Shown here: positions 7,674 through 59,530 of the stretch, one piece after another
Layout of the letters: each line of letters opens with the position of its first letter
Numbering within the stretch: the stretch's first letter is position 1
Source of the DNA: an uncultured Dehalococcoidia bacterium
Lineage (GTDB): Bacteria > Chloroflexota > Dehalococcoidia > Lucifugimonadales > Australimonadaceae
Reading direction: 5' to 3'
DNA length: 64,000 nt
Assembly (NCBI GenBank): GCA_958295525.1
Contig: OY282355.1
Coordinates: 248,001 to 312,000 of the forward strand
Position numbers and translations under genes: made by a program
Notes under the pieces: model-generated
Told to the model about the DNA's origin: nothing
Seen by the model: the letters and a program-made list of their open reading frames with translations, nothing else
Database searches by the model: none

Positions 7674-7703
7674 TTGACTCGTTCCAAATGGTTGTTCTAT
7701 GAT
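7674..7703 (+). promoter_or_regulatory. Promoter of the small-RNA candidate
   Basis: TTGACT (7674-7679) and TATGAT (7698-7703) with an 18-bp spacer, pointing into a stretch with no plus-strand gene. Start of transcription is expected near 7710. Confidence 0.65.
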
Positions 7704-7709
7704 GAGGAC

Positions 7710-7792
7710 AATCCGGCGGCGCCGGAGGTGGTCGGTTCGAAGGAATCGGCGGGAAGGGCTGAGGTCTATTGGCCTGAGCCCTTCTTCTTTTT
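7710..7792 (+). ncRNA. Candidate free-standing small RNA, about 83 nt
   Basis: A promoter at 7674-7703 leads into three hairpins and a U-tract. Hairpin 1 is TCCGGC/GCCGGA with loop GGC. Hairpin 2 is an 8-bp stem with two G-U pairs, GTCGGTTC/GAATCGGC, closed by loop GAAG. Hairpin 3 is the terminator at 7756-7792. No plus-strand gene follows and the next coding sequence converges from the other side, ending at 7859. No open frame with a ribosome site is evident. It resembles signal-recognition-particle RNA only superficially: the conserved GGAA loop and flanking asymmetric bulge are missing. Function unknown. Confidence 0.55.
7756..7792 (+). terminator. Rho-independent terminator
   Basis: Stem GGGCTGAGGT (7756-7765) against GCCTGAGCCC (7772-7781), with one internal mismatch, followed by TTCTTCTTTTT. 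Confidence 0.7.
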
Positions 7793-55709: not shown

Positions 55710-56882
55710 TTACGTGATTATCTTGGGCTTGGCGCTCCATTGGATCGGTTCACCTGTATCAGCGTCCGGCAACCCGTCAATAATAGGCGGTTTGTTCCCA
55801 TCTACTTTCGCCCAAGCAATTTGCTTCTGCGTAAGGCCAGTGGCAGCAAAGTGTCCTTCGAGAAACACCGTTCCTGTCAGGTTGGCAGCGCCTAGTTCAG
55901 CGTGGCGAAAGTCTGCTCCTTGTAGTCTAGCATAAGACAGATTCACGCTCCTCATCACAGCATCTGTGAATTTGGCGTATACCGCGCTCACACTTGATAG
56001 ATTAGCGCCAGTTAGGCTAGCGTCTGCTAGGTCCGCGCCATCCAGAATTGCGCCATCCAGAATTGCTCTGTACAAATGTGCTTTTGATAGATTGCTTCTT
56101 GTGAGCGTCGACCCAGTCAGGTCTGCGCCTTCAAAATTGCAATCAGTGAAATTCAGCCATCCCAACTTCAAACCACGCATATCCGCGCGAGATAGATCCG
56201 GCTGATACTTAGAATCTCTTTCGATCTGAATACGGTCTTCATTTCGGCTGCCTATTGCCTTAGCAGCCTCTTGGACATCCGGATGGAATAAACGATATGC
56301 CTGTGGATATGCATTCTCTTCACCTATCTCGTCAAACAATTCTTCAAGCCTCGATTGCGCTGCTTGATCCAATGGAATCGGGTTACGAACAAACGCGCAA
56401 AGCGCTTGCATTACTTGGACGTGGAGTTCTTTAGGATGCTCTTGCGCAAGATGATCTAATGCGTATATTCCTTCCAGACGAACAGACAGAATAGGGCTGC
56501 CGATCATTTCGACGCCTTTCTGGTAGCGTTCGTAGGTCAGGCTCCGTTGCGCCGCGTCCACCTGACGTTGCGCCGCGTCCACCTGCCGCTCCGCCGCGTC
56601 CACCTGCCGCTCCGCCGCGTCCACCTGACGTTGCACCGCGTCCACCTGCCGCTCCGCGACCCGGCTGCGCCAAACGGCCAAGACAAGGGCGACCACCGCG
56701 CCCAAGACGAGGCTGACGTTCCGCAGCGCCTCGCCGTTGGACTCCATCCCGCCGCTCCGCAGCCAGTCCCACCGCAAGCAAGCGAGGCCGAACCCAGCAA
56801 CCACTATTGCCGCCGTCAACGCAATGACTTGGCCAGCGCCCAACTCACGGAAGAACCTAGGCAACCTGTCCTGTATTCGCAT
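55710..56882 (-). CDS. Membrane coiled-coil pentapeptide-repeat protein
   Basis: The 390-residue protein starts at ATG 56882 with AGGAGG eight bases upstream and TATACT at 56903-56908. Two N-terminal membrane helices (about 16-35 and 54-72) precede a five-unit heptad coiled coil (RQVDAAE, about 77-112), a helical region, and a C-terminal run of pentapeptide repeats (about 230-345, e.g. ADLTG STLTR SNLSK AHLYR). Pentapeptide folds are right-handed quadrilateral helices that often mimic DNA or mediate contact. Membrane-coil-pentapeptide layouts occur in some defence effectors. The gene is AT-richer than neighbours. Role inferred. Confidence 0.8.
   Translation of the reverse strand: MRIQDRLPRFFRELGAGQVIALTAAIVVAGFGLACLRWDWLRSGGMESNGEALRNVSLVLGAVVALVLAVWRSRVAERQVDAVQRQVDAAERQVDAAERQVDAAQRQVDAAQRSLTYERYQKGVEMIGSPILSVRLEGIYALDHLAQEHPKELHVQVMQALCAFVRNPIPLDQAAQSRLEELFDEIGEENAYPQAYRLFHPDVQEAAKAIGSRNEDRIQIERDSKYQPDLSRADMRGLKLGWLNFTDCNFEGADLTGSTLTRSNLSKAHLYRAILDGAILDGADLADASLTGANLSSVSAVYAKFTDAVMRSVNLSYARLQGADFRHAELGAANLTGTVFLEGHFAATGLTQKQIAWAKVDGNKPPIIDGLPDADTGEPIQWSAKPKIIT
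56548..56652 (-). repeat. Five 21-bp tandem coding repeats
   Basis: Units 56548-56568, 56569-56589, 56590-56610, 56611-56631 and 56632-56652 encode the RQVDAAE/RQVDAVQ heptads of the pentapeptide protein. Confidence 0.9.
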
Positions 56883-57669: not shown

Positions 57670-58863
57670 TCATGTTGCTGGCTCGACCGCGAACTTCTCC
57701 CCCTCCGGTGGCGACGCTTGGCCTTCCTCGTTGGTTCCCCAGCAGACGGCGCTGCCGTCGTTCCGCAGTGCGCAGGTGTGCTCCCCCCCGCTGGTAATTG
57801 ATGTGAACCTTTCGTTGGGCGGCGGTGATGCCGGCCCATCTTCTCTAGGAGTATACGACCTCGATCCCCAACAGGACACGCTGCCTGAAGTTCGCAATGC
57901 GCAAGTATACCCTCCACCGCTGCTGATAGAGGAGAATCGGTCACCAGACGGCGGTGATGCTTGCCATTGGAAGTTAGACCCCCAGCACACTGCGCTGCCG
58001 TTGGCGCGCAATGCACAAGTGTGGGAACTCCCACTGCTAATCGACACGAACTGGTCGCCGTCAGGCGGATCCGCCTGCCCCGTGTACCCCCAGGAAAAAA
58101 TTCCGGTGGCTCCTTCGTTACTTCCCCAGCAGACTGCGCCGCCGTCGAAACGGAGAGCGCAAGTGTGCCATCCGCCGCTGCTGATGGAGGCGAATCTCTG
58201 GTTAGGCGGCGATGTTTGACCATCTTCGTTGCCGCCCCAACAAACAGGGCTGCCGTCAGGACGTAGGGCGCAAGTATGAGACCATCCGCTGCTAATTGAC
58301 GCGAATCTCTCATCCGGAGGCGATGCTTGTCCGTCCTCATCGTTGCCCCAGCACTCGGGGCTGCCGTCAGGACGTAGGGCGCAAGTGTGCCATCCGCCGC
58401 TGCTGATGGAGGCGAATCTCTCACCCGGCGGCGATGCTCGCCCGTTGCCGTCATTCCCCCAACAAACAGGGCCGCCGTCGGATTTGAGTGCACAGGTATG
58501 GCTGCCTCCTGCGCTTATGGCGGTTGCGAGGCGCGCGTCTACGACGGGCGTAGGCGTAGGAGTCGCGGTCGGCATCGGCGTGGGCGTTGCAGTGGGCGCG
58601 GGCGTGGGCGTTGCAGTGGGCGCGGGCGTGGGCGTTGCAGTGGGCGCGGGCGTGGGCGTTGAGGTTGGAGTAGGAGTAGGCGTTGGAGTGGGCGTTGAGG
58701 TTGGAGTAGGCGTAGGAGTCGCGGTCGGCGTCGGGGTAGGCGTAGCCGTTGGAGTAGGAGTAGCGGTCGGCTCCAGCGTAGGCGTCGGCGTGGGCGTAGG
58801 AGCAGCGCACGCCGTGACGAGGATTGTCAGGATAAGGCCAACGGCCAAGAGCGGGCGAAGCAT
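57670..58863 (-). CDS. RCC1-like repeat lipoprotein with PTP linker
   Basis: The 397-residue protein starts at ATG 58863; AGGAGGG six bases upstream decides against a GTG 21 bases earlier. A lipoprotein signal ends at ILVTACAAP, followed by about 85 residues of Pro-Thr repeats, then seven RCC1-type repeats, each with a core like [14 protein letters not shown] then VCWG. Each repeat has a Cys pair, so disulfides are likely outside the cell. Such beta-propellers bind proteins or sugars. An unusual structured leader lies directly upstream (58899-59018). The propeller call is firm; ligand unknown. Confidence 0.82.
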
Positions 58864-58898
58864 GCAGAACCCTCCTGCGACCACGAGGTGAAGGCGCT

Positions 58899-59018
58899 TG
58901 CTACAGCGTTCCGTACCCAGACGCGAACCGACAGGAGGGCGCAGCGGCCCTCCCTCATTGGTTCAATGGTTCGCGGCGCCCTCGATAAGGCGCGCGGGTA
59001 ACATCGAACGCTGTAGCA
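58899..59018 (-). ncRNA. Candidate structured leader RNA / riboswitch-like element
   Basis: Nested helices: P1 is a perfect 13-bp inverted repeat, 58899-58911 against 59006-59018; P1b is TACCC 58914-58918 with GGGTA 58996-59000; P2 CGCGAACC 58922-58929 with GGTTCGCG 58968-58975; inside it P3 (7 bp, 58934-58940 / 58947-58953) and a small CATTG/CAATG hairpin; and a separate 5-bp hairpin P4 (58976-58980 / 58989-58993). This is a junction with two arms. Read on the minus strand it begins at the predicted transcription start and ends about 36 nt before the lipoprotein ATG. I do not recognise a known riboswitch. A MITE is the alternative, since no target-site duplication is seen. Confidence 0.6.
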
Positions 59019-59024
59019 TAAGGT

Positions 59025-59053
59025 ACTCTAGCAAAGGCGCGTGGCCGGAGCAA
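59025..59053 (-). promoter_or_regulatory. Promoter of the structured leader
   Basis: On the minus strand TTGCTC (59048-59053), 17-bp spacer, TAGAGT (59025-59030). The start would fall at about 59018, the outer edge of P1. Confidence 0.5.
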
Positions 59054-59177
59054 GCGGCGGCTATCCGCGACCGTGCGCTAGGAGCGTGACAACGATGCCT
59101 ATGCACACCTCTCCCCACCTCGGCCTATCCATCCGGCAGGGCGGCGCGGAGCGCCGCTCTCATTTCCATCCGGGGCC

Positions 59178-59530
59178 CCGTCATTCCGCGCAGGCGGGAA
59201 CCCCCGCCCCCGTCTCATCCTTGAATCCGCAGACGATTGGGATACGAGATTCCCGCCTACGCGGGAATGACGGGGGCGCAACGCGCCCCGTCTCCATATC
59301 ACCCAGGCGTCACGCCCTGACCGCGCAGGCGGGAATCCCACCCCCGTCTCCGTCATTCCCGCGCAGGCGGGAATCTCGCCCCCGTCCCCATCGTTGTTCC
59401 CGCGCAGGCGGGAACCCCACCCCCGTCCCGTCATTCCCCGCGTAGGCGGGAATCTACCCCTCCCGTCATTCTCGCGTAGGCGGGAATCTCGCCCCGTCCC
59501 CATCGTCGTTCCCGCGCAGGCGGGAATCCA
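59178..59530. repeat. Large REP-like palindrome cluster
   Basis: About nine copies of the ATTCCCGCGCAGGCGGGAAT-type palindrome and one GGGGGCGCAACGCGCCCC inverted segment. No gene is supported in 59054-59551. Confidence 0.9.

Follow-up and report, generated by a model that had tools for sequence, protein, structure and literature searches.

In the preQ1-II, SAM-II and SAM/SAH riboswitches, a strand of the upstream folded domain sequesters the Shine-Dalgarno (SD) sequence as a pseudoknot. Ribosomal-protein leaders, such as those of S15 and S4, place translation under the control of a protein via SD-proximal pseudoknots, and c-di-GMP riboswitches (GEMM-I/II) are multicopy leaders often found before genes for surface and secreted proteins. 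To our knowledge, few regulatory RNAs have been described from uncultured Chloroflexota, that is, from Dehalococcoidia and their relatives. Two Chloroflexi-linked motifs, Chloroflexi-1 (RF01698) and pan (RF01749), are found in Weinberg et al. 2010 (PMC2864571), where the sole entry for Chloroflexi-1 is Chloroflexus aggregans. Here, we analyzed a structured element in a 64,000-nt stretch of DNA from an uncultured Dehalococcoidia bacterium (hereafter the window). Judged from sequence comparisons, it is probably a cis-acting 5′-leader RNA, in which an anti-SD strand would switch between an SD mimic in helix P6 and the true SD, and so control translation initiation.

The element lies on the minus strand at 58899-59018, from P1 to P1′, and is matched by our third-round covariance model at 127.8 bits (E-value of 1e-27 in the window, a rough figure given the short calibration of the models). 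Its 120 nt fold on the minus strand at −67.1 kcal/mol, compared with −45.5 ± 3.5 kcal/mol for dinucleotide-shuffled sequences (z = −6.1), of which none among 200 was as stable, and the first two homologues reach z-scores of −5.6 and −7.1. The initial annotation of this locus had proposed a 13-bp perfect terminal helix, a 5-bp helix, an 8-bp helix around two hairpins and an extra hairpin, and all of these are present where it had placed them. P1 joins a 5′ arm of 13 nt, TGCTACAGCGTTC (59006-59018), to a 3′ arm, GAACGCTGTAGCA (58899-58911), which forms with it an inverted repeat of 100% complementarity and is followed by a conserved AAG. P2 pairs 58996-59000 with 58914-58918 over 5 bp, P3 is a variable hairpin (58976-58993) that some copies lack, and P4 pairs 58968-58975 with 58922-58929 over 8 bp, enclosing P6 as well as P5, a small hairpin (58956-58968) that is inconsistent between copies. 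The 5′ strand of P6, GGAGGGC (58947-58953), is the SD mimic; its partner (58934-58940) is included in the anti-SD, GCCCTCCTGT (58931-58940). This anti-SD is also complementary to the SD of the downstream gene, GCAGGAGGGT (58869-58878, same strand), a match that the initial annotation did not contain. The 3′ end of the 16S rRNA of the window genome is GGATCACCTCCTTT, so that the SD is plausibly real; moreover, as the P1 arms enclose the anti-SD and leave out the SD, pairing of these two strands would create a pseudoknot, provided that P1 stays formed.

The promoter had been predicted to start transcription at the outer end of the terminal helix. The −35 box TTGCTC (59048-59053, minus strand; usually TTGACA in the relatives) and the −10 box TAGAGT (59025-59030, minus strand), separated by a 17-nt spacer, are both weak and are not called by a strict consensus promoter scan in the window, yet the −10 box, which ends 6 nt before P1, keeps its distance in other copies (36 of 48 have it 5-6 nt ahead of P1). 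At the other end, the ATG at 58863-58861 lies 35 nt after P1, where about 36 nt had been estimated, and across copies the start codon mostly falls 4-10 nt past the SD. The element thus stands between promoter and start codon on the gene's own strand, the placement expected of a cis-acting translational leader. No intrinsic terminator or sign of transcription attenuation was found in this stretch of the window. Upstream of the promoter, at 59170-59440, there are several short palindromic repeats (TTCCCGCGCAGGCGGGAATC-like), with similar letters at other loci of the genome.

The element belongs to a multicopy family, which the initial annotation had not recognized. BLAST returned only two true relatives, one in the same genome (70%), upstream of another lipoprotein gene, and the other in a sister species (80%), whose P1 is wholly different (CCATACCACTTC/GAAGTGGTATGG) and still fully complementary. 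We therefore built covariance models in three rounds, from the window element and these two relatives, then from 11 copies and then from 42, the divergence between copies being so high that such models are required for alignment. A genome-wide search with the exact inverted-repeat pattern gave no match, because P1 sequences differ between copies. The first model found eight more significant copies within the genus. Among 147 genomes of the order, 22 had a match to the second model. The third gave matches in 12 of the 14 genomes of a further genus of this order, with as many as 8 copies in one genome, as well as in 22 of 393 genomes of a class sample and in 10 of 301 of a phylum sample, nine of them outside the window genome's class; these copy numbers and this phylogenetic range are lower bounds, since the large scans scored 7-20 candidates per genome, those of class and phylum 7-10. 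In total, we collected 94 distinct matches in about 50 Chloroflexota genomes of several orders and classes, with nine copies in the window genome itself; the pattern matches are in uncultured Dehalococcoidia and Chloroflexota MAGs. Three low-scoring matches of the first model (L027, L034 and L037), devoid of promoter, P1 or SD, were discarded as chance, and a fourth (L036) was retained merely as a core without P1. The latter (L036:1501-1553; G001:C75:21696) has a P4-P6 core with a canonical anti-SD, while P1 and SD were not found; it lies 2 kb from a full copy and is perhaps a decayed one. Some copies are arranged in pairs, either divergent, head to head and less than 200 nt apart (G139:C9:45835-46332 and G153:C115:66611-67152), or successive, as at L080:5583-5711 and 7694-7774, where two elements, one of them shortened, precede paralogous Thr-Pro-rich lipoprotein genes; this locus looks identical in place to G036:C1:2021583-2027473.

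The absence of a known class, as the initial annotation had it, was borne out by Rfam 15: the only match in the whole window is a tRNA outside the element, and across 24 element loci no family overlaps any element, either at gathering score or at a relaxed threshold of E ≤ 1. We likewise found no description of such an RNA among open-licence PMC papers, a search in which absence is not proof. One locus carries a described RNA nearby, namely DUF3800-VI (52.9 bits, gathering 35; L035:1002-1054, minus strand, G000:C1 about 2484216-2484268), with roughly 450 nt between it and an element copy located downstream, in front of a DNA methylase gene.

Multiple copies with long terminal complementarity would also fit a mobile element, such as a MITE or a transposon end, whose terminal inverted repeats stand before genes by chance, an alternative that the initial annotation had itself raised. 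The nine copies of the window genome are nevertheless not near-identical, with a full-length identity of 55-78%, about that of shuffled sequence (59%), and their terminal arms are unrelated. Each sits in the same setting of promoter, leader, SD and gene, with a constant start codon context, and every helix covaries. The methods used gave no element match in viral contigs, phages or plasmids, among which distant relatives would escape. We thus rejected the MITE or IS reading, which we regard as extremely improbable.

Compensatory changes, by contrast, are what a structured RNA leader predicts, and they are massive in every modelled helix among the homologues; together with the negative Rfam result, they support that reading of the locus. 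Over the 94 distinct matches, two-sided changes occur in all 37 modelled pairs, amounting to 779 cells, a count that none of 500 shuffles attained (222 expected); when the partners are displaced by 1-3 columns, at most 168 remain. Pairing reaches 95% over the ten outer pairs of P1 and 82% over the next three, 92% of cells in P4, 80% in P6 and 72-76% in P2 (72%) and P3, which is missing from many copies, although all these levels are inflated by the fitting of the alignments to the covariance models. Every pair of P1 and of P4 covaries, as does P2. In a test that leans little on the alignment, the P1 arms of a copy pair with each other at a mean of 11.9, compared with 5.3 when combined with the arms of other copies (0 of 2000 permutations), such that the sequence of the 13-bp outer helix varies from copy to copy and its complementarity is kept. 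P6 is less regular, as up to 40% of copies lack the pairing at single positions, which makes the SD-mimic half of the model less certain than the pseudoknot. A further tail pairing (CC...GG, helix 9) that could hide the SD locally shows mostly one-sided changes and was left out of the final model.

The pairing of the anti-SD with the SD is supported in the same manner. The anti-SD complements the SD of its own gene over 7-16 nt in 89 of the 94 distinct matches, for instance as GCCUCCUAGCGG:CCGCUAGGGGGU, GCCUCCUCACGG:CCGUGAGGAGGU and GCCUCCGUUGUUC:GAGCAACGGAGGU; about five matches, some of them truncated, show no clear complement. The two strands display 82 two-sided cells compared with 29 in shuffles (0 of 500), the pairing itself not being part of the covariance models, which did include its sequence columns. 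Covariation also holds for the SD-distal (outer) half taken alone, most of which lies beyond the 16S-pairing bases and which has only two end columns in common with modelled pairs (40 compared with 15 in shuffles; 0 of 500). In addition, three positions, located in the 5′ strand of P6, in the anti-SD and in the SD, change in concert, as G-C-G in 45 copies and A-U-A in 11. The computed anti-SD:SD duplex beats the 16S:SD duplex in 92 of 92 copies (means of −23.1 and −10.0 kcal/mol), and the local P6 fold reaches −12.6 kcal/mol. A conserved structure able to hide the SD, a further feature expected of a cis-acting translational leader, is thus present. As far as aligned sequences can tell, covariation shows the pairings of P1-P4, of P6 and of the anti-SD with the SD to be real.

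Based on these pairings, we propose a model in which the transcript would begin at P1, and this helix would enclose P2, P3 and P4/P5/P6 in a single domain. The 5′ strand of P6 resembles an SD and would compete for the anti-SD strand: in the ON state, the anti-SD would pair with this mimic and leave the true SD free, while in the OFF state its partner would be the true SD past P1, over 7-16 nt, in a pseudoknot hiding the ribosome-binding site. We infer that in the cell only one of the two pairings can form at a time, that their balance responds to a signal and that OFF is the repressed state. An SD held in a covarying pairing could also act as an RNA thermometer, in which melting of the anti-SD:SD duplex frees the ribosome site. 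Most known RNA thermometers are short hairpins, imperfect and mismatched, whereas this pairing is elaborate and very stable (mean of −23 kcal/mol), and a thermometer would have no need for a competing SD mimic, which makes this explanation improbable.

The presumed regulated gene in the window (57670-58863, minus strand, ATG at 58863) encodes a protein of 397 aa with a lipobox, in agreement with its initial annotation as a lipoprotein, followed by a Thr-Pro-rich linker and seven RCC1 repeats (RCC1_2, 1.6e-55). Further along, at 55710-56882 on the minus strand, an ORF resembles, by eye, a membrane protein with pentapeptide-like repeats. Among 78 matches with an open frame past the SD, a simple lipobox rule identifies 35 lipoproteins, and 17 more products have a signal or membrane segment; the same rule picks 2 of 44 greedily chosen ORFs in the window, or 3 with a lenient start, a rough comparison as the two ORF sets were picked differently. 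Some of the short frames downstream of elements are probably not genes. Of 58 proteins scanned with Pfam, five have RCC1 repeats, three trypsin-like domains and two are DNA methylases, the remainder being mostly without family or consisting of repeats alone.

These targets, together with the distribution of conserved bases, bear on the nature of the signal. Conservation is strongest in the outer P1 pairs and the 3′ flank (YGCnACAG ... CUGUnGCAAG-n-RCC), in P6 and in the SD, while the unpaired bases within P1, internal junctions included, are little conserved over 92 copies. One possibility is that of a metabolite riboswitch, in which P1-P4 and their junctions would form the ligand pocket and the pseudoknot the expression platform, as in preQ1-II or SAM-II. 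A multicopy SD-pseudoknot leader before several unrelated genes would allow one signal to control a regulon, as this possibility supposes; the weakly conserved junctions are nonetheless unlike known aptamers, and the genes encode mostly orphan envelope proteins with no metabolic pathway, so that we consider it rather doubtful. Alternatively, a trans-acting protein could recognize the outer P1 and the 3′ flank and set the translation of envelope genes. The concentration of conserved bases in precisely these parts (YGCnACAG/CUGUnGCAAG and the flanking RCC) and the predominance of lipoproteins or membrane proteins among the targets speak for such a protein, which we hold as a tentative possibility, given that conservation of the P1 bases does not exceed about 93% and that some copies vary freely there. 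With conserved bases in the outer P1, the 3′ flank, P6 and the SD, and no internal pocket seen, we slightly favor a protein or a physical cue, with P1 and its flank as the site of action, over a classical metabolite pocket.

Taken together, the element is common and highly diverged, and covariation supports its fold and its switch alike; it is best read, from comparative sequence data, as a class of translational leader, so far undescribed, that would sequester the SD. It seems moderately likely that this class is Chloroflexota-wide and defines a regulon of surface proteins, with as many as about nine leaders in a genome, controlled by anti-SD exchange in response to a new signal or a new RNA-binding regulator. 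The family brings together little-known envelope proteins as a putative regulon and offers testable pairs for both the on and the off state, and its covariance model can be used to seek the full distribution together with the trans factor or ligand.

Compared with described systems, Chloroflexi-1 and pan are candidate structured RNAs of the same phylum, and neither matches the element in the Rfam searches. The element resembles GEMM-I/II in being multicopy and in preceding genes for surface proteins, but it has no sequence or structure match to them in those searches. Unlike the S15 and S4 leaders, it occurs in many copies per genome, before genes for lipoproteins, membrane proteins and DNA methylases rather than ribosomal proteins. 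With preQ1-II, SAM-II and SAM/SAH it shares a predicted SD-sequestering pseudoknot; it differs from them in having no Rfam match and no conserved binding pocket that we could see, as well as in its size, in the genes it precedes and in its architecture, which combines a 13-bp P1 starting at the predicted +1 with helices P2-P6.
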